DNA from: a virus
Length of the DNA stretch: 64,000 nt
Virus record (IMG/VR): IMGVR_UViG_3300042566_000678
Location: 62,001-126,000 of that record
Strand: one strand, 5' to 3'
The notes beneath the pieces were generated by a model. It was not told the DNA's origin and made no database searches. It saw only the letters and a list, made by a program, of their open reading frames with translations. Within the stretch, counting starts at the first letter, position 1. Every line of letters starts with the position of its first letter. Both the position numbers and the translations under genes were made by a program. This document shows positions 36,631-63,859 of this stretch, in pieces.

Positions 36631-37794
36631 TTAATTACTTAAAGGTGCTTTAATCTTTGGATGTGATTGGTAATCATTCAATTCAAAACAATCAGGTCTG
36701 TACGATAGTATCTTATCATTAAATGATTTTGGACCTAAATGTTCTTTTACTTTCTCATGCTGATACCAATTTCTTTCTGTTATTGTAATAGTTGGTAAAT
36801 CATATGGTTCTCTACTGATTTGCTCTTTAGCCTGTTCAATATGATTTTTGTATAAATGTACATCGCCCAAATTACCAATCAAATCTTCAGGTATCATATT
36901 AACTTCTTTTGCAATAATCTCTAATAGTAATGCGTAAGATGCTATGTTAAATGGTAATCCTAAAAATGTATCTACACTTCGTTGATTCCACATTAAAGAG
37001 ATTGCTCGTGTTGGGATGTTCAATTCATCTAACACATCAAATGTTATCCTTTTATCTGGAGTCCAGTCAAATTTTCTTTCATTTTTTAAAATAAAAATTT
37101 CAAATCTTTGGTCATAACTCAACTCTCTCGTATAAACTTGGAATCCATAATGGCAAGGTGGTAAAACCATTTGGTCTAACTCTGCTACATTCCAAGCATT
37201 TACCATCAATCTTCTACTATCTGGATTTGTTTTTAGAGAATGAACTAATTGTAGAATCTGGTCATACCATAATGAACCTTTCTCATTACCTCTCATATCT
37301 ACCCAACCTTGCCATTGTCTCCACTGCTTACCATAGATTGGTCCTAAATCACCCCACTTTTTGGCAAAATCTTTATCATTTTTTATTTTACTAATAAATT
37401 CTTCTTTTGTTAAGGGAATTAATTCATCGGTATTACTAAACATCGCTTCAATATGTGGTTGTATTCCCATAATGTCACCACATCTATAACCGTCAATAAT
37501 ATCTTCAACCGCATTAGTATAGTTTTTAAACGCATCACCATCCCAAATGTGGCAATCGTAATCCAATAGGAATTTGATGTTAGTATCACCACGTAGAAAC
37601 CATAGGAGTTCTGTAACAATTGTCTTCCAAGCCATCTTCTTTGTAGTAAGTAAAGGGAATCCTTGTGACATCTTATGACGGATTTGTCTACCGAATACAG
37701 ATATAGTACCCGTACCGGTTCTATCTTGCTTTTCAACTCCGTTGTCTAAAATATCTTCTAATAAGTCTTGGTATTTACTATCTATTGTGTTCAT
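36631..37794 (-). CDS. thyA: thymidylate synthase
   Basis: 387 residues, about 120 longer than the 264-residue E. coli enzyme. Motifs: phosphate-binding Arg in QDRTGTGT (about 25), FPLLTTKKMAWK, TELLWFLRGDTN, PDSRRLMVNAWN (191-202), catalytic Cys214 in LPPCHYGFQVY, and GDVHLYKNHIEQ. Extra length comes from insertions at about 92-150 and 225-265, as in the longer phage and Bacteroidota enzymes. Makes dTMP from dUMP with methylene-tetrahydrofolate, completing the dUTPase pathway. No sign of an altered active site that would make hydroxymethyl-dUMP. Confidence 0.95.
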   Translation of the reverse strand: MNTIDSKYQDLLEDILDNGVEKQDRTGTGTISVFGRQIRHKMSQGFPLLTTKKMAWKTIVTELLWFLRGDTNIKFLLDYDCHIWDGDAFKNYTNAVEDIIDGYRCGDIMGIQPHIEAMFSNTDELIPLTKEEFISKIKNDKDFAKKWGDLGPIYGKQWRQWQGWVDMRGNEKGSLWYDQILQLVHSLKTNPDSRRLMVNAWNVAELDQMVLPPCHYGFQVYTRELSYDQRFEIFILKNERKFDWTPDKRITFDVLDELNIPTRAISLMWNQRSVDTFLGLPFNIASYALLLEIIAKEVNMIPEDLIGNLGDVHLYKNHIEQAKEQISREPYDLPTITITERNWYQHEKVKEHLGPKSFNDKILSYRPDCFELNDYQSHPKIKAPLSN

Positions 37795-46253: not shown

Positions 46254-46900
46254 TATTCTCCTACGTCTACCACGTGTCTATCCCAACCAATATGCTTACA
46301 ATATCCTTCTGTGAATATCATTGCAAAGTATTCTCTTTCGTAATAGTATTTACTTATTTCTAACTCTCTACCAATTGGTGTGTACCCATCTTTTGGATAA
46401 TCTACCAACTTTCGTAGTGATGGGTTGAATGTGAATCCATGCCAATGTCCATCAAATCCCCAAATCAATCTACGAACTCCCTTACCATTTACATCATAGG
46501 TTGGGTCTATGGATGGGTGTGGTGTATCGTTAGGGTCTCTTGTCCATACACATATAATCTTTTCATCCAAATCAATTACATCCAAACAAGCCTCAATGAA
46601 TCCTTCTTTGTAGAACTCCCAATCTTCTTCCATATGGAAAATGTATGGGGTTGTTATCATAGTATATGCTTTATCTATACTACGAACTTGACCTATGTTT
46701 TTAGGATTATCTATAAACTTAATTAATGGGTACTTTTTAATCAAGTCATTATTGCAACCAACCACACCACTATCATCAATCACTATAAACTTTTTGATTG
46801 GATGTGTGTTAAACTTATGGAAACTATCCAAAGTTTTCTCTAACAAATCTGGTCTGTTACATGATGTAACTACAACTGAAACCTCTTTAAAGTCCTTCAT
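46253..46900 (-). CDS. family 2 glycosyltransferase
   Basis: 215 residues. VSVVVTSCNRPDLLEKTLDSF, FIVIDDSGVVG, and acidic HMEEDWEFY replacing the usual DxD, as in GT2 family enzymes that modify phage or host glycans. Starts 13 bases inside the 3' end of the next gene upstream, so expression is coupled. Acceptor unknown. Confidence 0.82.
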   Translation of the reverse strand: MKDFKEVSVVVTSCNRPDLLEKTLDSFHKFNTHPIKKFIVIDDSGVVGCNNDLIKKYPLIKFIDNPKNIGQVRSIDKAYTMITTPYIFHMEEDWEFYKEGFIEACLDVIDLDEKIICVWTRDPNDTPHPSIDPTYDVNGKGVRRLIWGFDGHWHGFTFNPSLRKLVDYPKDGYTPIGRELEISKYYYEREYFAMIFTEGYCKHIGWDRHVVDVGE

Positions 46901-47513
46901 AGAAATCGTTTTGTTTTCTTTGACGTTCTATATCTTTAATATGTTTGATTGAATATACCTCTTCCGTTGGGAATATAGAATAGGAATCATATCCCTGTAC
47001 CTTCTCATGTACTTTACCTGCCCAAAAGATGTTTTGTTTGTTTCGATACAATCTACCTTGTACATCTGGATAATTTACCCAACCTTGCTCATTAACTTGC
47101 CATCTCCATTTTGCAATATCCTCCGGTGTTAAACCATTTACGATGTTGATTCGTGGTAGCCAGAACATATCTATCTCTGGGTTTCCCTCTAATATAGTAT
47201 GTAGGTTTTCTATAAGTGTTGGGTCTAAATCTTCATCTGCATCTAATTGGAAAATCCAATCACCACTACAATTTTGATTTAGATGTTGTTTGAATTGCCC
47301 AAAATCCCCATTTAGTGGGAATGATACTAAACGTTGGATTGAACTATCTATTACAGATTTATTTAGATATTCAACTACCTCCACCGTTGCTTTTGGTGAA
47401 TCGAATTGAACTACGATTTCATCTTCTTCTCTTTTGTGTGAAGATAAACGTGTTATAAGGTTTTGTATCTCAACTATCTCATTGGATACTGTAACTGCGT
47501 AACTTATTTTCAT
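46887..47513 (-). CDS. family 2 glycosyltransferase
   Basis: 208 residues. Short GT2 enzyme with YAVTVSNEIVEIQNLITRL and a clear DxD-type motif FQLDADEDLD; W-rich C-terminal half (KWRWQVNEQGWVNYPDVQGRLYRN). Probable nucleotide-sugar transferase, close in size to the neighbour downstream. Confidence 0.82.
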   Translation of the reverse strand: MKISYAVTVSNEIVEIQNLITRLSSHKREEDEIVVQFDSPKATVEVVEYLNKSVIDSSIQRLVSFPLNGDFGQFKQHLNQNCSGDWIFQLDADEDLDPTLIENLHTILEGNPEIDMFWLPRINIVNGLTPEDIAKWRWQVNEQGWVNYPDVQGRLYRNKQNIFWAGKVHEKVQGYDSYSIFPTEEVYSIKHIKDIERQRKQNDFYEGL

Positions 47514-47521
47514 AATCTATT

Positions 47522-48055
47522 TTATTGTCTACCAACTGGCTTTATTTCAAGTCCAATTTTCTTACCTAATTTTTCTACATTGAAATACACTTCACTCAAT
47601 CTTTTTAATCCTGGTATTTTATAGGTTCTATAACAATCGTAGTTTTTAAGTAGTGTATTATTTTTAACTTGCTTTTGATAAAATGCAGCTCCTGTCCTAT
47701 CTATCTTTATAGCTTTAGCTTCTTTACTATATTGTAGATTTTCGGATAGTTCTGTATTAGTATCTTGTATATCTTTTAATAGTGCTACAACGTATAAAGG
47801 TTCTTGTATTTTCTGCATCAATTGAGTAAATACCCTTAAAGGTATTGCGTTTAACTTAATGCAATGTACTAATTTATCGCCTCTGTTAAAACCCAATACC
47901 AATAAGAGTGGAGTCTGCGAACCCCCATATGCTTTTGTTTTACCACTTACATAATCATACCCATATAATCTATAAAACCCACCATTTTTTATTTGGTTTT
48001 TTGTAGTGTTTCTTTCTAAATAGAAATATGGAATATAATAATATAGGTTATTCAT
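47522..48055 (-). CDS. hypothetical protein
   Basis: 177 residues, basic, with FYRLYGYDYVSGKTKAYGGSQTPLLLVLGFNRGDKLVHCIKLNAIPLRVFTQLM. No known catalytic motif. It is embedded in the glycosyltransferase cluster and overlaps the next gene upstream by eight bases, so it may be structural (the style resembles phage tail or neck accessory proteins) or a partner of the transferases. Confidence 0.58.
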   Translation of the reverse strand: MNNLYYYIPYFYLERNTTKNQIKNGGFYRLYGYDYVSGKTKAYGGSQTPLLLVLGFNRGDKLVHCIKLNAIPLRVFTQLMQKIQEPLYVVALLKDIQDTNTELSENLQYSKEAKAIKIDRTGAAFYQKQVKNNTLLKNYDCYRTYKIPGLKRLSEVYFNVEKLGKKIGLEIKPVGRQ

Positions 48056-49313
48056 TTACTTTTGTCAACTTTGGGATATTCAACGGAATAAATTGTTTTA
48101 TTGTTGGAACGTATTTAGTTAAAATACCATCAAACAAAGTAGTCATTTTTTCTAAACCAAAATTTTGTTGGTTTTGTTTTCCTAATTGTTGAGATGCTGT
48201 TTTGTACTTATCGTATCCCTTATAAATATCGGTAAATGTTTTAATTGCTCCGGTGTAATTCACATAGAACCATTTAGTTCCTTCCAAAATGAATTGGTCT
48301 TGTGCTGATGGGTGTACATCTTTCAACTCACCATCTAACAATACTGCACCTTTATTTAAGAAATCCAAATGCCCACTCCAATTAGATGCAATTACGGGCT
48401 TACCTGTCAAACTGAACTCTAATAATGGTCTACCAAATCCTTCACCATGTGTAAACGAAACCATAGTTTTTACCTTTGGATGTTGGTATAGTGCGTTCAT
48501 TTCTGAATCACTTAACTCACCATGCAGTAAATAGATAGATGGGATGTTCTTACCAAACTCTTCCGTAACCTCTTCTAATTTACCCATAGTTGCTTCTCTA
48601 TCCATTACAGAGAAACCCGCTGATGATGTTTTAAGGATTAGTGCAGGTGCGTTCTTTTGCCCTCTAAATGCGTGACAGAATGATTTAATCATCATACCTA
48701 CATCTTTTCTATCGTGCCCCAAATCACCTTTCAACCAATGCCCTACAAATAGGAATGCAAAATCTTCTTTGATTTTATCCAACTCTGGTAATTCAACTTC
48801 TGCTTTCTTACCAAAGAACTCTTCGTTGTATCCCTCAAATAAAACCTCAACCGGCTTTTCTAATTTATGTTCTTTAACTACTCGTTGTGTGTTTCTATCA
48901 GTTTCACTATAAATAGTTTTAACTAATACATCTTTAGAAAACTCCGATGGTACAATAATCATATCCATACGATTACACCCTGCAATAAAATCAACAGAAC
49001 AAGCCGTAGTTTCTATACCAGCAGTAATACCAATATTATATGTACCCATTGGTTGGAACTCATTTGGTACAGTCACTTGCATATACACATCTGGCTTACG
49101 TTCTACACCAGCCACAATTCTTTTAATAATATCTTCATCATTACCAGTTAATGCAGTCATCGGTGTTGCTCCCCATCTGGTAGATATAATACGAACATCG
49201 TACTTATCCAATTTGATTAGAGAACGAACCAAATCTCGTGCATGGTCCCCATAACCACTCCTTGTGGCTACGGGTCCTTGAAATAATAGTAAAGGTTTTT
49301 TAACTTCTGCCAT
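48048..49313 (-). CDS. family 4-type glycosyltransferase
   Basis: 421 residues, two-domain GT-B layout: N-terminal GPVATRSGYGDHARDLVRSLIKL (acceptor side) and C-terminal nucleotide-sugar site with SFTHGEGFGRPLLEFSLTGKPVIASNWSGHLDFL, the E-x7-E-type GEGFGRPLLE motif of GT4. GPVATRSGYG is also found in the next enzyme's phage relatives. Probable retaining sugar transferase. Acceptor unknown. Confidence 0.83.
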   Translation of the reverse strand: MAEVKKPLLLFQGPVATRSGYGDHARDLVRSLIKLDKYDVRIISTRWGATPMTALTGNDEDIIKRIVAGVERKPDVYMQVTVPNEFQPMGTYNIGITAGIETTACSVDFIAGCNRMDMIIVPSEFSKDVLVKTIYSETDRNTQRVVKEHKLEKPVEVLFEGYNEEFFGKKAEVELPELDKIKEDFAFLFVGHWLKGDLGHDRKDVGMMIKSFCHAFRGQKNAPALILKTSSAGFSVMDREATMGKLEEVTEEFGKNIPSIYLLHGELSDSEMNALYQHPKVKTMVSFTHGEGFGRPLLEFSLTGKPVIASNWSGHLDFLNKGAVLLDGELKDVHPSAQDQFILEGTKWFYVNYTGAIKTFTDIYKGYDKYKTASQQLGKQNQQNFGLEKMTTLFDGILTKYVPTIKQFIPLNIPKLTKVNE

Positions 49314-49316
49314 AAC

Positions 49317-50711
49317 TTATTTAATATCTAATGTAAAAATCTCGTGTTTCTTTCTCGGTGTAAAGTTTTCTAATGCATCATTGATTCCATCGGTCATAGT
49401 TTTACACATATTCTCTAATGATAATCCACCTTCGCCTAATGCCCACTCTCTACCTTTTAATCCTAACGCCTTTCTTTCTTCTCTACCCATATTGTAGAAC
49501 TCACTTAATGCCGATGTTACCTCATAAGTATCAACGTGGTCTTCCATAATGTATGGTGTTGGTGGTGAACCTGTATAAGAACGAGAACGGCTCCATACTG
49601 GAATTACCCAATCTCCCCAAGTTACTTTATCTTCAAACTTTCTCCAATCGTGCAAAGAACCAATCTCCACATAATCTTCTTCGTTTAATGCTACACCACT
49701 ATCTTTCCAACGGAAACCACATTGGTCTTGCAATCCACCAGTTACATTTACAATGACAGGTGTTCCTGCTACGATACTTTCTGCACTAGCCAATCCAAAT
49801 CCTTCTGCTGATGAAATGTTTAAAGTAACATCTGCTATATTGTATAACTGATTTAATTGCTGCTCATTCCACTTTCTATCATCAAATATCACATTGATAC
49901 CCGGAGCTAAATCTGCTACTACCTTCGGTAAATCCGTACCATTCTCATCTACCTTTTGTGTGTGCATCAATAAAGCACATTTATCACGTTTTTCTTCTGG
50001 TAGATTATTTACAAAATCTCTAAAAGATACAATCACATCAATTGCCTGCTTTCTACGGATGTTTCGGTTGTTCCAATATGCTACAAAATCATATTTTTTA
50101 TCACCCAATACCTCTTTGTAGAATTTATCATCAATTTGAGTTGGTTTGTAATCTACATCGTTTATACCGTGTGGTACATACTTTACTTGCCAATCAGCAG
50201 GTTGTTTCCAACGTGATTTTGCATCCATTCCCCATACTCTACGAGTAATCCCATAGGTTTGTCTTGAAATAGTACCTACCCAATCACAACTCTCTAAATA
50301 ATCTCTGTTGTATTGTGGGTCTGGTAAATCATCCCAAATGTGATAGAATAAAATTGGGATGTTTTGACGAATCTCATGCTCAATTTGATATAACCAAATC
50401 CAATACCTAGGGTCTGTAAAGTGTAGGATTGCATCTGGGTTTTCCATATTGATGATTTGACGTAACGAATCCGCAGTACCATATCCTGATGATGGGTAGA
50501 TTTTTACATATGCATCTTCGATACCCGTTCTCTTACGGACATCTTCACACAAATCCATAATCTTACCTTCTTCCGGATGTTTTACTGCTGCTCCGATTTG
50601 CACCCAATCGAAATCTTTTAATGTACCTAATACGAATTGCTTTGACATATTTGCAATACCACTTGCCATCCGTAGGTCGTCTGATAGTAACAATATCTTC
50701 TTTTTTGCCAT
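49317..50711 (-). CDS. family 4-type glycosyltransferase
   Basis: 464 residues, GT-B fold. N-terminal SDDLRMASGIANMSKQFVLGTL; central HIWDDLPDPQYNRDYLESCDWVG; C-terminal NISSAEGFGLASAESIVAGTPVIVNVTGG with the GT4 E-G-F-G-L-x-x-x-E motif. Paired with the preceding GT4 gene, three bases apart. Phages of aquatic Bacteroidota often carry such enzymes for virion or host glycans, but the acceptor is not known. Confidence 0.83.
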   Translation of the reverse strand: MAKKKILLLSDDLRMASGIANMSKQFVLGTLKDFDWVQIGAAVKHPEEGKIMDLCEDVRKRTGIEDAYVKIYPSSGYGTADSLRQIINMENPDAILHFTDPRYWIWLYQIEHEIRQNIPILFYHIWDDLPDPQYNRDYLESCDWVGTISRQTYGITRRVWGMDAKSRWKQPADWQVKYVPHGINDVDYKPTQIDDKFYKEVLGDKKYDFVAYWNNRNIRRKQAIDVIVSFRDFVNNLPEEKRDKCALLMHTQKVDENGTDLPKVVADLAPGINVIFDDRKWNEQQLNQLYNIADVTLNISSAEGFGLASAESIVAGTPVIVNVTGGLQDQCGFRWKDSGVALNEEDYVEIGSLHDWRKFEDKVTWGDWVIPVWSRSRSYTGSPPTPYIMEDHVDTYEVTSALSEFYNMGREERKALGLKGREWALGEGGLSLENMCKTMTDGINDALENFTPRKKHEIFTLDIK

Positions 50712-50988: not shown

Positions 50989-51858
50989 TTATTTTTGCCG
51001 AGCTGGACACCTATCCTTAAACTCACAGAATCTACAATTTTTATTACCCTCACCTGGATTTGGTGTGTAATCCGCATCTAAATTATCTGTACCATCTTCG
51101 TTAAATACCGAATCTACGAATCTCATAAAGTCTTTAACCGCACGAGCCACCGATGGACCACCATTAGCAGGAACTAATTTAGATATGCGTGGTATAGTAT
51201 ATTCCGTATTCTCACTAATTTTTCGTTTAATGATTTGGAACTCGACTTGTATCCTGTCTATCGGGTGATTGTACTGCTCTGAATAATAATGTTTGTATAA
51301 TAGTAATTGGTTTAGTTTAGTTTTGTCCGCCTTCTGTTCCTTTGTCCAACCACGCGTAGATGTTTTGAAATCAACAATCTTTAATAGGTTGAACTCTTTG
51401 TGGCGGGTTACTATATCCAAATATCCTAACATAGATACATTGGGTTTTAGTTGGATGTTTAGGGGTAATTCTATACCTACCAACTCCCAACCTTTCTTTG
51501 CGAAGAAGTCATCACTATTTTTCTTAAAGTACTCCAAACAAATGACTCCATCGTTATAGAACTCCATAAGTTCCTCTTTGGAACATACGAACTTGCCTTC
51601 CTCAAACCCTTCATGCTCTTTCTTAAAAGTATCTACAAGCCTTTCTTTAAGTAAAGCAGGTAAATCTATTTCGTTGGCCTCTTTCTTTGTCTTATTGTAG
51701 AATATACTCAAATAATGTTGTAGGGTTTCGTGAAATGCAGTACCAAAGATTGTGTGAATACTACCAGAGTAGACACCTAACTTATCAATGTAGTTGAACT
51801 TGTACTGCTGCGGGCAGGTGGTGTACATTGAATACCGTGAATAGGATACGCGAGCCAT
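50989..51858 (-). CDS. Cas4/RecB-like PD-(D/E)XK exonuclease with Fe-S cluster
   Basis: 289 residues from MARVSYSRYS (the promoter at 51876 excludes the ATG at 51906). Cys15 in MYTTCPQQYKFNY, then LGYLDIVTRH, VDFKTS and QLLLYKHYY form the RecB-type nuclease core (D-E/D-K and Q-x-x-x-Y), and CRFCEFKDRC at the C-terminus supplies three cysteines that with Cys15 can bind a 4Fe-4S cluster. This is the Cas4/AddB-type architecture used in phage DNA replication and recombination to resect DNA ends. No CRISPR array is present. Confidence 0.88.
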   Translation of the reverse strand: MARVSYSRYSMYTTCPQQYKFNYIDKLGVYSGSIHTIFGTAFHETLQHYLSIFYNKTKKEANEIDLPALLKERLVDTFKKEHEGFEEGKFVCSKEELMEFYNDGVICLEYFKKNSDDFFAKKGWELVGIELPLNIQLKPNVSMLGYLDIVTRHKEFNLLKIVDFKTSTRGWTKEQKADKTKLNQLLLYKHYYSEQYNHPIDRIQVEFQIIKRKISENTEYTIPRISKLVPANGGPSVARAVKDFMRFVDSVFNEDGTDNLDADYTPNPGEGNKNCRFCEFKDRCPARQK

Positions 51859-51875
51859 AATATTTTCTTTAAGTA

Positions 51876-51906
51876 CAAATATACAAAAAAGACTTGGGAT
51901 TACCAA
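51876..51906 (-). promoter_or_regulatory. Bacteroidota-type promoter overlapping a terminator
   Basis: -7 element TATATTTG at 51876-51883, 20-base spacer, TTG at 51904-51906. The TTG and spacer lie inside the terminator hairpin at 51889-51911. Confidence 0.76.
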
Positions 51907-55726: not shown

Positions 55727-55885
55727 ATGAAATCATTATTTACAAAAGCATTAGTTTATTCAATTGGAACAATTGTAGTTTCAGCTGCGGTATTTAGTAT
55801 TACTATGGCAGGGTTGAACCTTGCTGGTAAGACAGATGTTACAAAGCAAGTTATTGAAGAAATGGATGAAGTTTTAGGAATCTAA
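55727..55885 (+). CDS. single-helix membrane protein, only plus-strand gene
   Basis: 52 residues from MKSLFTKALVYSIGTIVVSA..., transmembrane helix about 8-30, then GLNLAGKTDVTKQVIEEMDEVLGI. An in-frame upstream ATG at 55580 is in poor coding sequence over the opposing promoter, so the start at 55727 is preferred; it is preceded by CGGGGGTTATATG. It is the only well-supported gene on the plus strand, diverges from the promoter at 55644, and its stop overlaps the stop of the barrel gene by four bases. Confidence 0.65.
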   Translation: MKSLFTKALVYSIGTIVVSAAVFSITMAGLNLAGKTDVTKQVIEEMDEVLGI

Positions 55886-57462
55886 AGCATCAATCTAGAA
55901 CCTATTAAGAAATTACTTAATATCGGTGCTCCAGCAGCAGTTGATGTGTTTATCTTATAGTTGAAACTCAAACCAAACTTTTTGGATAATTTATAATCTA
56001 CGGATGTTCCTAATAGGAATCCAACATTAGTAGTATAACTAACCTCACCCTTTGCAGTATTTAAACTTGCACCAGGAGTCATTACAAACACCTGTGGTGA
56101 TAGAGTAAGTTTCTTTGATTTCTGATATGGTTTAGTCCAAAATACAACTGCTGAACTACTCATACTATAATCCTTACCGATAAATAAATTTACCAAACCT
56201 AAATTGTAACCATATACACCATACTTTGGATTTGGTATAATATGTGTAAATCCAGCCAATGCCATATAGTTACCAGATAGGTATGCAGTAGTTACTGAAT
56301 AGGAGTTCATAGAAGCCATCTTTCCATCCTTAAAGTTCATCTTTGTTACACCACCACTCAAAGCAAACTGCTTCAATGTAGACCATACCATAGAGTTTAA
56401 TGAATAGGTTACATTACCTGCTGCCGATGAACGTGATATACCATTAGTAAGTATAGCTGCGAACTCACCAGGTGAACCTTCTACTACGCTTAAATCAGAT
56501 GCTATTAATAGTGGATTTATTGGTGCTACTTTTTGTTTTTTCTCTTCTTTTTTTTCCTCTTTCTTTTCTTCCTTTTTTTCTTCTTTTTTAGATTCTTCTT
56601 TCTTTTCTTCCTTTTTAGATTCCGATTTAGATTCTTCTTTCTTTTCCTCACTCTTACTTTCAGATTTGCTTTCTGATTTGGATTCAGATTTGGATTCAGC
56701 TTTTGCTTCGGTTTTAGTTTCCGTTTTACTTTCAGATGATGAAGATGAACTATTGGATGATGAACTACTACTACCACCGGCCGATGGAGATGATGAACTA
56801 CTTGCTGGCGCTGGTGCGGATGATGCGGCAGGTGCTGGTGCTGAAGTAGTTGGTGTTGGTGGTGGAGGTGGAACTGCCGCCGATGCAGCTCCACTAGCTG
56901 CTCCACTCGCTGCCGAACTAGCCGCTCCACTTGCTGCCCCACTTGCCGCTGAACTTGCTGCTCCACTCGCTGCATTTGAGGCCGCTGAACTGGCTGCCGA
57001 TGAAGCTGCTGAACTTGCTGCACTACTTGCGGCAGAACTCGCTGCCGATGAAGCTGCTGAACTCGCTGCTTGGGATGCTGCACTACTTGCGGCTTGAGCT
57101 GCTGCCGCTGATGCGGCTTGTGTAGCTGCTTGGGCTGCTGCTTGCTGAACTGCCTGATTTACCGTTTGTTGAACTGTCTGTTGAACTACTATTGTTGCCG
57201 TTTGGCATCCTTGTGCGGAGTATGCAGTATAAACTGTCTGTAACCATATTCGCATTGCACCACTTTGAACTTCATCTGGTGAGAATACTCTCATCTGGTC
57301 ATAGAATGATACAAATGCACTTCCGTTGACATAAGTAGTAGTGGCAAGTTTTACCTCACCACTACACTTGTCAATAAATGTTTGTGTAAATGTTTGTCCT
57401 TTAGCTTTGGAAGCTAGACAAAAGATAAATAATACACTTAATAATATTCTTAAACTTTTCAA
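55882..57462 (-). CDS. exported beta-barrel protein with long Ala/Ser and Lys/Glu stalk
   Basis: 526 residues. Signal peptide 1-22 (MKSLRILLSVLFIFCLASKAKG); residues 23-95 small globular domain with two cysteine-containing strands (QTFIDKCSGEVK, AQGCQTATIVV); 95-195 an Ala/Ser/Gln tract of AASSAAS repeats; 195-250 Pro- and Ser-rich; 250-320 Lys/Glu/Ser tract; 325-526 a beta-barrel-like domain ending IGSRLML. The low-complexity part could span the periplasm or project from the cell. Its neighbours are a beta-helix lipoprotein and a TonB receptor. Function unknown; possibly surface masking or adhesion. Confidence 0.68.
   Translation of the reverse strand: MKSLRILLSVLFIFCLASKAKGQTFTQTFIDKCSGEVKLATTTYVNGSAFVSFYDQMRVFSPDEVQSGAMRIWLQTVYTAYSAQGCQTATIVVQQTVQQTVNQAVQQAAAQAATQAASAAAAQAASSAASQAASSAASSAASSAASSAASSAASSAASSAASNAASGAASSAASGAASGAASSAASGAASGAASAAVPPPPPTPTTSAPAPAASSAPAPASSSSSPSAGGSSSSSSNSSSSSSESKTETKTEAKAESKSESKSESKSESKSEEKKEESKSESKKEEKKEESKKEEKKEEKKEEKKEEKKQKVAPINPLLIASDLSVVEGSPGEFAAILTNGISRSSAAGNVTYSLNSMVWSTLKQFALSGGVTKMNFKDGKMASMNSYSVTTAYLSGNYMALAGFTHIIPNPKYGVYGYNLGLVNLFIGKDYSMSSSAVVFWTKPYQKSKKLTLSPQVFVMTPGASLNTAKGEVSYTTNVGFLLGTSVDYKLSKKFGLSFNYKINTSTAAGAPILSNFLIGSRLML
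56530..56745 (-). repeat. Lys/Glu/Ser-coding short repeats
   Basis: Near-tandem units such as AAAGAAGAAAAGAAAGAAGA and TCTGAATCCAAATC coding for KKEEKKEE and KSESKSES within the barrel gene. Prone to copy-number change. Confidence 0.75.
56880..57130 (-). repeat. Ala/Ser-coding short repeats
   Basis: Units built on GCTGCTTCATCGGCAGC- and GCAGCAAGT-type codons giving AASSAASSAAS over about 80 residues. Likely a spacer; internal deletions or expansions are expected. Confidence 0.75.
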
Positions 57463-57495: not shown

Positions 57496-58692
57496 TTAGT
57501 TTCCTTTTGTTGGAAATTTTGTCCAATCATTTGTCCACATTGGTTTATCCATTGTAGGTATTATCACATCCACTTCTTTATTACTCTTTGAAAGTGCAAG
57601 AGTTTTTAATTGGTCATTTGTTAGGATTGTAGTTGCTTTACTGATAAAGTTTAGTGTAGGGTTAAACGTTCCTACTGAATTGTTTTCAAATACTGAAATT
57701 CCATCTTTCACAAATTGTGCGGTTTCATTACTTTCCAAACTTAATCCACCTTTCATCCATCCCCAAATTACACTATTCTTCATTGTGAATTGTGTTGCTC
57801 TTCTAAATCTTAAACCTAAATTATGGTTTGATAATGCAGTAGATGTATTCGGTCCAATCAAAATCATATTATAAAGTTTTGGATGTGTGAATGGAGTTGC
57901 AGATGAACCTGTTCCATCATTATCACATTCTACACCATTTCCTGCATCACCATTATCTACGAATTGTGGGTCTCTCTTTGCTACACCATTTGTGATTGTT
58001 CCAGTGAATCCAAAATCAAAATCAAAATCATCATCTGCGGTTGCAAATGCATATAAGTTTTTAGGTGATACAGTCCCACCAAAGAACTCAAATGCATCAT
58101 CGTTAGCGTAGATAGTTTGTACATTCTCAATGATTGTACCACTACCAACTCCACCTAATGTTAGTGCGTTGATTTCAGAGTTTGGCATTGCTGCAACTCC
58201 TGCGTATTCTATTCTTACATATTTTAGAATACCACTATTATCCAAATCGTTTGTTCCACCAAACGCTCTACCAATACCACCTTCGATTGTTGGTTCGGAT
58301 GTTCTATTGGTTTTTGCTCTACCCAATATTACAATACCACCCCAATCGCCAGGTGTTCTTTCACCGACTGCTCTACCCGATGTGAATACAATTGGTTTTG
58401 CCGAAGTTCCTTCTGCTATAATTTGTGCTCCTCTTTCGATACACAATGCACCTTTCTCACTTATATCTGATTTGATTATTGTACCCGGCTGAATGATAAG
58501 TTTTGCACCATCGGTTACATATACATATCCTTTTAATATCCACTCTTTATCAGCGGTTAGGGTTGTAGTTGCTGAAATGTTTCCACTTAAAGTTGTAGTT
58601 GATGGTACATTTATTGGAGTAACTTCTCCACCCAATTCTTTTGAACATCCAAAGATTGTTAAACTTGCAAATAATACTAATAATTTTTTCAT
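57496..58692 (-). CDS. beta-helix surface lipoprotein
   Basis: 398 residues, lipoprotein signal MKKLLVLFASLTIFGC (lipidation at Cys16). Body rich in short turns and Asn/Gly/Asp strands (GYVYVTDGAKLIIQPGTIIKSDIS, GGIGRAFGGTNDLDNSGILKYVRIEYAG, GSGTIIENVQTIYANDDAFEFFGG) as in right-handed parallel beta-helix proteins. ATGA overlap with the TonB receptor upstream indicates coupled synthesis, so it is probably the receptor's surface partner, by analogy with SusD-like or other lipoprotein partners of TonB receptors. Ligand unknown. Confidence 0.74.
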   Translation of the reverse strand: MKKLLVLFASLTIFGCSKELGGEVTPINVPSTTTLSGNISATTTLTADKEWILKGYVYVTDGAKLIIQPGTIIKSDISEKGALCIERGAQIIAEGTSAKPIVFTSGRAVGERTPGDWGGIVILGRAKTNRTSEPTIEGGIGRAFGGTNDLDNSGILKYVRIEYAGVAAMPNSEINALTLGGVGSGTIIENVQTIYANDDAFEFFGGTVSPKNLYAFATADDDFDFDFGFTGTITNGVAKRDPQFVDNGDAGNGVECDNDGTGSSATPFTHPKLYNMILIGPNTSTALSNHNLGLRFRRATQFTMKNSVIWGWMKGGLSLESNETAQFVKDGISVFENNSVGTFNPTLNFISKATTILTNDQLKTLALSKSNKEVDVIIPTMDKPMWTNDWTKFPTKGN

Positions 58693-61172
58693 AGGTTGTA
58701 ATTTAGTGTTAGTGAAATTGTTGTTTCGTTGTTTGTTTTAATTAAGGTACGATTTGGTTTTTGGTAATACTTAAATGGTTGTCTGAATATATCCGATACT
58801 GCTAATTTAATTTCTCCGTTTTTAATCTTACGAAGTAGAACTATATCCACCACATCACGAGAGTTTTCGAATATATCAGGATACCCTTGGAAACCAACTG
58901 CTGATATTCTATCTCCTACTCTATTGTATGATATGTTAAATGTGTTATTATTTTTGTGTAAGTTTAATCCACCATTTACTACATAGTTTGATTGCCCTTG
59001 CAATTGTCTTTTTACTGAACCTATTTGGACTTCCGAATTGATGAACGATGTGTTTGAGTATAAATCTAACCACTCATTTAATTTCTTACGAAGTTCTATC
59101 TCTACCCCATAAACTAATGCTTCTTTTGGGTTTTTGTATGTTAGTAAAAGGTTTGATGGAACTGAACCATCTGCTACTACTTGCTCAATTGGATTGAAGA
59201 ACTTTTTACCAAAGAAACCAATTGATATATTTTCACCTGATTTAGGATACAACTCAAACTTTATATCTGAATTGAATATATCAGTCTTTTGTAAGTTTGG
59301 ATTTCCCAATAGTTGTGCGTTTCTTACAAAATCATAATAAGCAAAGTTTGCTACCTCTCTGAACTCCGGTCTTGCTAATGTTTTACTTACGGATAATCTA
59401 ACCTTTGTTTTTTCCGATGTTGAATATGTTGCGTTTAATGATGGTAGTAAATCAAAGTATTCTCTATCTACTGAAATCTTCTGTCCACCAAAATCAGATG
59501 TTTGTACTTTGAATAAATTGTACTCCGTTCTGAAACCAGTGTTTATCTTTAACTTATCAATTTCTTTTTCGTACATCACATATCCATTTGCCAAATCAAA
59601 ATCAGCAGTATATCTATCCGTATTGTTTGTGATTTCGTTTAACATATCCAATGCTTCGTATCTGAATATTCTTGCTTTGAAGTTTCTTAATTTCTTCAAG
59701 TAACCCACTCCTAAACGAATATCTCCTATGGATTTGTTTAATCCCCCATTGAATGAGTTTTCATCCATTACACTCCAAAAACGGTAGGTGTCTCTCCACG
59801 CTATTGTGTAAGGTGTTGTTGTGTATAAAGATGATATGAATGGAGTTACTCTATAATCGGGTTGGTCTCTCAACATAAGGTTGTATCCTACATTAAAATC
59901 CCAAGTCTTAAATTTACCTTCGAATTGTGTATTGATTACTGCTTTTTGAATTGAGTTTGATGATTTACTATCCACATACTGAACATTATCATAGTTCTCA
60001 CCAACTCTACTTAAAAACGATGATTCGGTTTGGTAGTTAGCAAGTGTTTTCCAACTATAACGATTCTCTCCCAAATACACTATGTTTAACAATCCGTTTA
60101 ATGATTGTACATTTGAATAGTTTTGGTCTTTGTATTTGTATGCTAATTCCGTTGATGATTGGTAATCAATTCTTTCGGTTGTGTTGGCTGAATATGTATT
60201 TCTTGCAGTTGAACTGAATAAGATGTTCCATTTGTTTTTCACCACACCAAATGATAAACTACCATTTAAGTTTGGGATAGATGTTGATGTTTCAGTTTGT
60301 GGTGAACCTATTAGTTTTGTGTATGCTCTTCTATCACCATTACTGCCAATTCGGAATGTATTTGTTGATGGAAATGTTTTTGGGAATTGTATAGGGTCTA
60401 CCAACCTAAAATCCTGTCCAGTTGATAGTGAACCCCAACTTCCTCCCAATGATATATTAAGGAAATCACCACTAACTTCCTTTGTTGTAATTTGTACCAA
60501 ACCTCCTGCGAAATCACCCGGTAAGTTTGCAGATGCTCCTTTGTTGATGATGATATTATCTATAAGTGATGTTGGGATAATATCAAATGAGAATGCTCTC
60601 CTATCGGGTTCGGTTGATGGTAGGATTGATTTGTTTAGTAGAGCCGAGTTGTATCTATCAGCTAAACCTCTAACTAAAACAAACTTATCGTTTTGGATTG
60701 TTACTCCACTAACTCGTTTAAGTGCATCACCAACAGTTCTATCTGGTGTTTTCTTTATTGATTCAATTGATAAACCATCTGCTACAATGTAAGATGCTTT
60801 AAGTGTGTTGATAAGTGCAGATGCGGTTTCTTTCTTTGCAACTTGCTTTACCACAACTTCTTGCAACAATTTAGTATCCTCTTCTAATTGAATATCTAAA
60901 TTAGTTGTTGTATCAATTGTAATATCTTTGTTGTATTCTTTATATCCAACAAAAGATGCTTTTACTGAATAGTTTCCTTTTGCTATATTGGTAAATTGAT
61001 ATTTGGATTCAATATCAGATGTTGTTCCTGCTTTCTTATTTGTTGTATTATTGGTAAGCCAAATTGTTACACCTATAAGTTCTTCTTTGTTTGATTTTAC
61101 TTTACCTGAAAGGTTTTGAGAGAAAATTTGATGTGAAAGTAACAGAATTGATAATAAAAATAGTTTCCTCAT
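58689..61172 (-). CDS. TonB-dependent outer-membrane receptor (SusC-like)
   Basis: 827 residues, complete. Signal peptide 1-18; residues about 20-95 carboxypeptidase-regulatory-like beta-sandwich (LSGKVKSNKEELIGVTIWLTN...GYKEYNKDITID); plug about 115-230 (EVVVKQVAKKETASALINTLKASYIVADGLSIESIKKTP...RGLADRYNSALLNKSILPSTEPDRRAFSFDIIPTSLIDNIIINKGAS); then a barrel of some 22 strands with YGVEIELRKKL and closing ISLTLNYNL. Such receptors import oligosaccharides, peptides, siderophores or vitamins using TonB energy. A phage-borne copy is unusual; it could replace the receptor used by rival phages, feed the infected cell or be moron DNA from a host. Its leader may hide the start codon (see 61157-61212). 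Confidence 0.88.
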   Translation of the reverse strand: MRKLFLLSILLLSHQIFSQNLSGKVKSNKEELIGVTIWLTNNTTNKKAGTTSDIESKYQFTNIAKGNYSVKASFVGYKEYNKDITIDTTTNLDIQLEEDTKLLQEVVVKQVAKKETASALINTLKASYIVADGLSIESIKKTPDRTVGDALKRVSGVTIQNDKFVLVRGLADRYNSALLNKSILPSTEPDRRAFSFDIIPTSLIDNIIINKGASANLPGDFAGGLVQITTKEVSGDFLNISLGGSWGSLSTGQDFRLVDPIQFPKTFPSTNTFRIGSNGDRRAYTKLIGSPQTETSTSIPNLNGSLSFGVVKNKWNILFSSTARNTYSANTTERIDYQSSTELAYKYKDQNYSNVQSLNGLLNIVYLGENRYSWKTLANYQTESSFLSRVGENYDNVQYVDSKSSNSIQKAVINTQFEGKFKTWDFNVGYNLMLRDQPDYRVTPFISSLYTTTPYTIAWRDTYRFWSVMDENSFNGGLNKSIGDIRLGVGYLKKLRNFKARIFRYEALDMLNEITNNTDRYTADFDLANGYVMYEKEIDKLKINTGFRTEYNLFKVQTSDFGGQKISVDREYFDLLPSLNATYSTSEKTKVRLSVSKTLARPEFREVANFAYYDFVRNAQLLGNPNLQKTDIFNSDIKFELYPKSGENISIGFFGKKFFNPIEQVVADGSVPSNLLLTYKNPKEALVYGVEIELRKKLNEWLDLYSNTSFINSEVQIGSVKRQLQGQSNYVVNGGLNLHKNNNTFNISYNRVGDRISAVGFQGYPDIFENSRDVVDIVLLRKIKNGEIKLAVSDIFRQPFKYYQKPNRTLIKTNNETTISLTLNYNL

Positions 61173-61223: not shown

Positions 61224-61242
61224 ATTTCGTATGTTACGAAAT
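61224..61242. other. 7-bp perfect hairpin
   Basis: ATTTCGT/ACGAAAT around a five-base loop between the gene ending at 61255 and the TonB receptor leader. Followed on the minus strand by GGTATTTT, so it may be a weak terminator. Confidence 0.45.
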
Positions 61243-61254
61243 TGTTAAATTATA

Positions 61255-63139: not shown

Positions 63140-63859
63140 TTATTTTTGGAACTTACCCTTTTTAATCATTCTTAAAAGGATACGAGCACAAGCAATATCT
63201 AATGCCTTCTTTGTAGATGTTCCGATTGTTGATTGGTTAAATTTAACATCTGATAAATTATCATCGTTCAATAATGATAGTTCACGAGTTGTAGTTGCAT
63301 CACCTAAACCAGATGCTCCAAATACCTCGCCTGTCTCTGCGTCTGTGAAACGAACTTGTAAACCTAAACGAGTAACCATTTTGTTTTTAACACCATCTTT
63401 TAAATTGATTGTTTCATCCTCACTAATAGAGAAATCATATACCTCAATAGATACAAAATAATGTGCTAATCTAATCTTACCTCTACCATCTAACTTATCT
63501 TGGGAAATGCCCGCTTGAGAAGCTTGAAATTGTTTAACCATTCTATTTTTGATTTCGGTTTTGTCCTCTGTAAAAGTAAAACGGTTGAGATTTTCAAGGT
63601 ATTCCATAGATATATTCGCCACACCAAGACCCACCTTCTTTTCTTTAAGTTCCGGATATTGTTCCAAAATTTCATCACTAATTCCACATTTTAAGATTTG
63701 AATTGGAATTGTTGGACCATCGTAGTCCATCAACTCGCTTATGTCCACTTTTGTTTCAAAACTCGCTTTGTAGTTTTCAGTAGTAGTTTTTCCAACTACT
63801 TGTCCCTTTGCAATAAAGGTCAATAATCCCATTGCTAAAATTAGAAATATATTCTTCAT
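63140..63859 (-). CDS. exported CsgG/LpoB-like protein
   Basis: 239 residues with signal peptide MKNIFLILAMGLLTFIAKGQ (not a lipobox). The mature part has KVGLGVANISMEY, TEIKNRMVKQFQASQAGISQDKLDG, RLAHYFVSIEVYDFSIS, then RLGLQVRFTDAETGEVFGASGLGDATTTRELSLL and STKKALDIACARILLRM, the strand order of CsgG-like periplasmic/outer-membrane proteins. True CsgG makes curli pores; the missing lipid anchor argues for a periplasmic relative. Role in the phage unknown. Confidence 0.72.
   Translation of the reverse strand: MKNIFLILAMGLLTFIAKGQVVGKTTTENYKASFETKVDISELMDYDGPTIPIQILKCGISDEILEQYPELKEKKVGLGVANISMEYLENLNRFTFTEDKTEIKNRMVKQFQASQAGISQDKLDGRGKIRLAHYFVSIEVYDFSISEDETINLKDGVKNKMVTRLGLQVRFTDAETGEVFGASGLGDATTTRELSLLNDDNLSDVKFNQSTIGTSTKKALDIACARILLRMIKKGKFQK

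Follow-up and report, generated by a model that had tools for sequence, protein, structure and literature searches.

Why would a phage carry the genes of an outer-membrane nutrient receptor? The question is raised by a 64,000-nucleotide stretch of viral DNA (the window; bases 62001-126000 of a virus record of 148,235 bp, G000 in our set), in which a gene for a TonB-dependent receptor (TBDR) overlaps a gene for a lipoprotein. We found that this pair is a conserved phage trait, and we consider it probable (roughly 0.7) that it is a PhoB-inducible phage cassette that imports a phosphorus compound during infection, at the outer membrane (OM) of a Bacteroidota host.

A receptor and lipoprotein gene pair on myophage genomes

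The TBDR gene lies on the minus strand at 58689..61172 and encodes 827 aa in an intact frame with zero internal stops. The predicted protein begins with a signal peptide and a CarboxypepD_reg-like domain (aa 21-108) and has a TonB-box-like motif, LQEVVV, at aa 103-108, followed by a plug (aa 134-224) and then an OMP_b-brl_3 barrel. Its Pfam matches (CarbopepD_reg_2/CarboxypepD_reg, Plug and OMP_b-brl_3) include PF13715, PF07715 and PF14905, the set found in PUSIV-type receptors. The AlphaFold model (pLDDT 84.6) shows a large barrel with a plug; when we compared this model to the PDB with Foldseek, we found TonB-dependent transporters with E-values down to 1.9e-23.

The lipoprotein gene (57496..58692, minus strand) encodes 398 aa. 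Its N-terminus, MKKLLVLFASLTIFGC, contains the lipobox LFASLTIFGC with Cys16, which is conserved among relatives, and the family has invariant acidic residues from about aa 198 to 257. Zero families in Pfam, PHROG or NCBIfam cover the protein, and its sequence has zero matches in the PDB. From the AlphaFold model (pLDDT 88), which is all-beta with regular short strands in a parallel-beta-helix-like array, we predict a parallel beta-helix. Foldseek matches to the model are mostly beta-helix proteins (pectate lyases, tailspikes), none of them individually significant (best E 0.0066), and include the pectate lyase Pel9A (prob 1.00, TM 0.39). The two genes share a 4-nt ATGA stop/start overlap (58689..58692, minus strand), which likely couples their translation. 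The open reading frames (ORFs), Pfam matches and models agree with an earlier note on this DNA, which had described an intact 827-residue receptor overlapping a 398-residue beta-helix lipoprotein by ATGA. Its label SusC-like was too specific: NCBIfam SusC/RagA models had zero matches to the window TBDR, and the lipoprotein has no Pfam match to SusD and a beta-helix-like model, as compared to the mostly helical SusD fold. With a partner that differs from SusD, the receptor does not qualify as SusC, and we rejected a SusC/SusD identity for the pair.

To the left of the pair are genes for a T4-type portal, a baseplate wedge, an endolysin and SbcCD-like proteins, and to the right are a DNA polymerase gene and 25 tRNA genes, which lie where the genome ends on that side (L104:11815-18668). 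Nearly all large genes point in one direction. The junctions at the pair recur on other contigs of close relatives, and the T4-type portal family is present in 21 of the 46 pair-bearing viral records tested, many of those without it being fragments, as compared to 0 of 14 control genomes. The record is a real myophage genome. The earlier note had named an assembly chimera, or a host locus flanking a prophage, as the outcome that would overturn its proposal. We rejected both and give them a negligible probability because, in addition to the phage genes that flank the pair on either side within one contig and the repeated junctions, the pair is found in other viral contigs, in many contexts and under purifying selection, as follows.

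When we scanned viral contigs, we found the receptor at 17 loci and the lipoprotein in 135 stretches, 80 of which were kept. Both genes are present in 70 other distinct viral contigs and the exact 4-nt overlap is present in 70/70, while it is absent from all cellular loci, where the spacing is mostly 20-60 nt. The viral pair is found in 26 different upstream gene contexts, with downstream contexts similar in number. All computable pairs have dN/dS values of 0.03-0.24, indicating purifying selection. The 59 full-length phage receptors have open frames, and 22 of them are missing the CarboxypepD_reg-like domain; the TonB-box-like LxEVVV, or a close variant, is kept at the expected place in all 33 phage receptors compared. 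The phage receptor clade is deep, with 62-95% identity to the window receptor. As a host-type transport gene under selection on a bona fide phage genome, the pair is a candidate auxiliary metabolic gene system. A search of plasmids returned distant TBDRs only. A distant pair is also found in MT838075 and MT837092, two short "phage" records from feces that are unannotated and perhaps bacterial.

Phosphate genes and a Pho-box-like repeat

To place the pair among cellular genes, we compared it to 108 cellular loci that contain the lipoprotein, mainly from Chitinophagaceae and the Aquirufa family with some from Sphingobacteriaceae. A TBDR adjoins the lipoprotein in 108/108 of these loci, and the neighbors identified by Pfam include PitA/PHO4 (29 loci), PhoU_div (29) and HisKA with an OmpR-type response regulator (16), as well as Porin_O_P and calcineurin-like phosphoesterases. 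Three Aquirufa genomes (G001, G123, G191) contain the closest cellular copies, with the receptor 71-73% and the lipoprotein about 75% identical; the remaining cellular copies are far more distant (receptor about 31-44%, lipoprotein up to 52% over matched parts). Since the nearest cellular copies are from Bacteroidota, we infer that the host is a member of this phylum. The gene order in Aquirufa is TBDR, lipoprotein, phosphodiesterase, PitA, and one Aquirufa genome has, within 15 kb, another PitA as well as a Porin_O_P and a paired phosphoesterase and glycosyltransferase.

Across the genus Aquirufa, we found a match in 34 of 38 genomes, and in most of them it is a native receptor of about 940 aa that is divergent. 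The phage-like form is present in only the three genomes named above, one of which (G191) has both the phage-like and the native form. In trees, the phage-like Aquirufa copies fall within the phage clade (SH-aLRT 95-96); however, an approximately unbiased (AU) test did not reject phage monophyly (p 0.093). Phage-to-host transfer of the pair into the Aquirufa phosphate locus is one possible direction of exchange. A recent capture by the phage, which the earlier note had offered as one option, is not supported, and we rejected it in view of the depth of the phage clade, the low dN/dS values and a closest cellular receptor that is just 71-72% identical.

Upstream of the window TBDR, 76 nt 5' of its start codon, is a Pho-box-like direct repeat with an 11-bp period, TTAACAATTTCGTAACA (61232..61248, minus strand; found by pattern and matrix). 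A Pho box consists of paired 11-nt direct repeats (PMC4415409), and the cyanobacterial Pho-box consensus is YTTAAYYW (PMC10976474); we found no paper on a Bacteroidota Pho box in the literature searched. The form of the repeat here is TTAAYA-N5-TTAAYA, such that TTAAYA recurs every 11 bp. We first spotted the repeat by eye in TBDR upstream regions and then tested it with a fixed pattern at ≤150 nt upstream, which was present in 27 of 42 distinct phage TBDR upstream regions (64%) as compared to 0.5% of 660 other ORFs of the same loci and 1.5% in dinucleotide shuffles. The signal is restricted to period 11, with nothing comparable at other spacings, and the repeat is present in 21 of the 26 phage contexts. 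In cellular loci, the repeat is upstream of 91% of TBDRs. Independently of these, it precedes 65% of the response regulator genes, 71% of those for phosphoesterases and 67-89% of the genes in two porin groups, as compared to about 0-5% of other genes.

We also trained a matrix on cellular non-TBDR genes, with training sites picked by the repeat pattern itself, and found that it tells phage TBDRs and intergenic controls apart with an AUC of 0.88 (p 9e-15); the window site scores above all 163 controls. The two top-scoring phage genes among the controls are the glycosyltransferase of a glycosyltransferase and phosphoesterase cassette that adjoins the pair, and an Oar-like TBDR. Taken together, the repeat and its distribution suggest that the pair carries a Pho-box-type control element.

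Proposed function and rival explanations

The closest described system that we found is in Flavobacterium johnsoniae, where a PhoBR operon encodes the TonB-dependent transporter (TBDT) Fjoh_0545 (pf07715, pf13715, pf14905) followed by Fjoh_0546 (FII), a lipoprotein with a pectin-lyase fold, and depletion of inorganic phosphate (Pi) strongly induces the two (PMC8115612). This PUSIV TBDT and FII resemble the phage pair in receptor Pfam architecture, in having a pectin-lyase-fold lipoprotein partner, in gene order by locus tag and in phosphate-linked regulation, a likeness drawn from domain architecture and locus rather than from sequence alignment. In contrast to the F. johnsoniae genes, the phage pair has the ATGA overlap and no adjoining phoBR, and some phage copies are without the CarboxypepD_reg-like domain. 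By comparison with that study (PMC8115612), which is how we assigned the family, the phage lipoprotein would be a counterpart of the Pi-starvation lipoprotein FII. ElpS of Caulobacter crescentus, a surface lipoprotein of Pi starvation that is tied to phosphatase activity (PMC2996285) and is reported to be related to FI-FIII (PMC8115612), resembles the phage lipoprotein by this description.

In the mechanism that we propose, PhoB of a phosphate-starved host would bind the 11-bp-period repeats at –76 and thereby activate the operon in the course of infection. The lipoprotein would reach the cell surface, where it may capture a phosphorus compound or aid its hydrolysis, and the TBDR would move the compound into the periplasm with energy supplied via host TonB. 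Host phosphatases and PitA-type transporters would complete the uptake, and the imported phosphorus would feed phage DNA synthesis. We infer PhoB binding, surface location, transport, a phosphorus substrate (inorganic or organic) and the benefit to the phage. Of the three options in the earlier note, import of a scarce nutrient is favored over the others, with phosphorus the likely nutrient given the cellular loci, the Flavobacterium counterpart, the repeats and the TonB box.

Several observations weigh against phosphorus import under PhoB control. Some predicted cyanophage Pho boxes failed to bind PhoB and such predictions are unreliable (PMC10976474). Our repeat pattern was originally noticed in the same TBDR upstream regions that were later counted, and the phage upstream regions are mutually related rather than independent. 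The strict repeat is missing from about a third of them and from upstream of the related pair of the huge phage LR745206, and the PHO4 and PhoU_div genes of cellular loci are mostly without it. A subgroup of about 25 cellular loci adjoins carbonic anhydrase and SulP genes, and the phosphate link is therefore not universal. The window genome is without a PitA or phosphatase gene beside the pair.

Many phages use TBDRs as their receptors, and some phage lipoproteins block TBDRs, as T5 Llp does with FhuA. On this precedent, the phage receptor and lipoprotein could act in superinfection exclusion by masking, displacing or competing with the host receptor of rival phages in the OM, and a close relative does carry a different TBDR at the same site, as if receptors were traded. 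This explanation fits poorly because the regulation is Pho-box-like, and neither such control nor the kinship with phosphate genes would be expected; the kept TonB box and the intact plug and barrel point toward transport, and a full 827-aa receptor would add a possible door for phage entry instead of closing one. We consider exclusion rather unlikely. It is also unlikely, in our judgment, that the pair imports another nutrient (a carbohydrate, bicarbonate or another anion, or a metal), as proposed for megaphage TBDRs. The TBDRs of Mar_Mega_1 and LR745206 were read as carbohydrate SusC proteins (PMC9723777), one cellular subgroup of the pair adjoins carbonic anhydrase and a SulP transporter, and the predicted lipoprotein fold is pectate-lyase-like; however, we saw neither a CAZyme nor a SusD in linkage with the pair, and the neighbors and repeats of the closest cellular copies are those of phosphate genes. 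Finally, the pair could be a passenger, a captured host operon with no phage role. Its distribution in related phages is patchy, and the relative G251 (described below) is without it, but the strong purifying selection, the open frames of the full-length copies, the phage-specific overlap and the retention of the pair in so many contexts make this highly unlikely.

Phosphorus import under PhoB control can be compared to known phage systems. Cyanophages have phosphorus genes that are controlled by host PhoBR (PMC10976474), and on our reading the pair would resemble their PstS and PhoA genes in serving phosphorus uptake, in having a Pho box, in its patchy distribution and in being exchanged among phages. 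In contrast to PstS, a periplasmic binding protein, the system here would be TonB-dependent and in the OM, belongs to Bacteroidota-type phages, and has PhoB control that is predicted from the repeat. By analogy, the best explanation is that the pair is an OM counterpart of cyanophage PstS. BtuB-BtuG and SusC-SusD likewise join a TonB-dependent barrel to a surface lipoprotein, but the partner here is a predicted beta-helix rather than of the SusD or BtuG type. A study of 2021 had already remarked on the TBDRs of Mar_Mega_1 and LR745206 and proposed that they may import carbohydrates (PMC9723777), and the earlier note, which knew of no established phage system of this kind, was thus nearly right. 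In LR745206, a 634-kb phage, a relative of the lipoprotein adjoins the TBDR (about 77.5-81.3 kb, L185), while the receptor is about 26% identical to that of the window and the gene order is reversed; this pair is apparently an independent capture. In the literature searched, with most subscription journals and preprints outside its scope, we did not find a phage phosphate TBDR, or a Pho-linked TBDR-lipoprotein pair that is widespread among Bacteroidota-type phages.

Known phage phosphorus genes are mainly from marine cyanophages and periplasmic (PstS, PhoA), whereas the pair would extend them to the OM step and to phages of another bacterial phylum. If our reading is correct, viruses can alter which substances a cell imports from its environment while it is infected. 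The pair would also draw attention to the uncharacterized pectin-lyase-fold lipoproteins in the Pho regulon of Bacteroidota, supply a candidate Bacteroidota Pho-box motif, and yield a testable prediction for phosphorus-poor lakes.

An exchangeable receptor site and neighboring genes

The pair lies between two conserved flanks. Downstream and co-directional is a gene for a secreted protein of 526 aa (55882..57462, minus strand), which is conserved among relatives whether or not they have the pair; by eye, its middle is a long low-complexity repeat of Ala/Ser and then Glu/Lys, and its C-terminus is barrel-like. Upstream is a gene for a secreted protein of 239 aa (63140..63859, minus strand) that is 96% identical in G251, a relative of 194,856 bp whose portal is also 96% identical. 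In G251 the pair is missing, and between the same two flanks we found one Oar-like TBDR of 1007 aa (L303:8402-11425), preceded by the same Pho-box-like element, TTAACAATTTGGTAACA, at –76. Another contig repeats this arrangement of Oar-like receptor and repeat, and in phage L136 the pair coexists with an Oar-like receptor gene that has a weaker repeat upstream.

In several loci (L004 (4399-5986), L003, L014, L016, L017, L137 and L165), the pair is followed by genes for a family 2 glycosyltransferase and a calcineurin-like phosphoesterase. We take PlcP-type lipid remodeling to be an analogy for this module, which could release phosphate from phospholipids. We tentatively suggest, as a combined scenario that we hold to be somewhat doubtful as a whole, that Bacteroidota myophages maintain a Pho-controlled site for exchangeable OM phosphorus receptors (the pair, or else an Oar-like receptor preceded by the same promoter element), which would be traded among phages, sometimes joined by the glycosyltransferase and phosphoesterase that could strip phosphate from host phospholipids, and passed to the Aquirufa phosphate locus.

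Elsewhere in the window, 36631-37794 encodes a thymidylate synthase of 387 aa in which the matched stretch is >100 aa longer than the Pfam model, and a large insertion is possible. A cluster at 46887-50711 contains clear glycosyltransferase genes at 48048-49313 and 49317-50711 and a weaker one at 46887-47513, and an exonuclease gene (50989-51906) adjoins this cluster.

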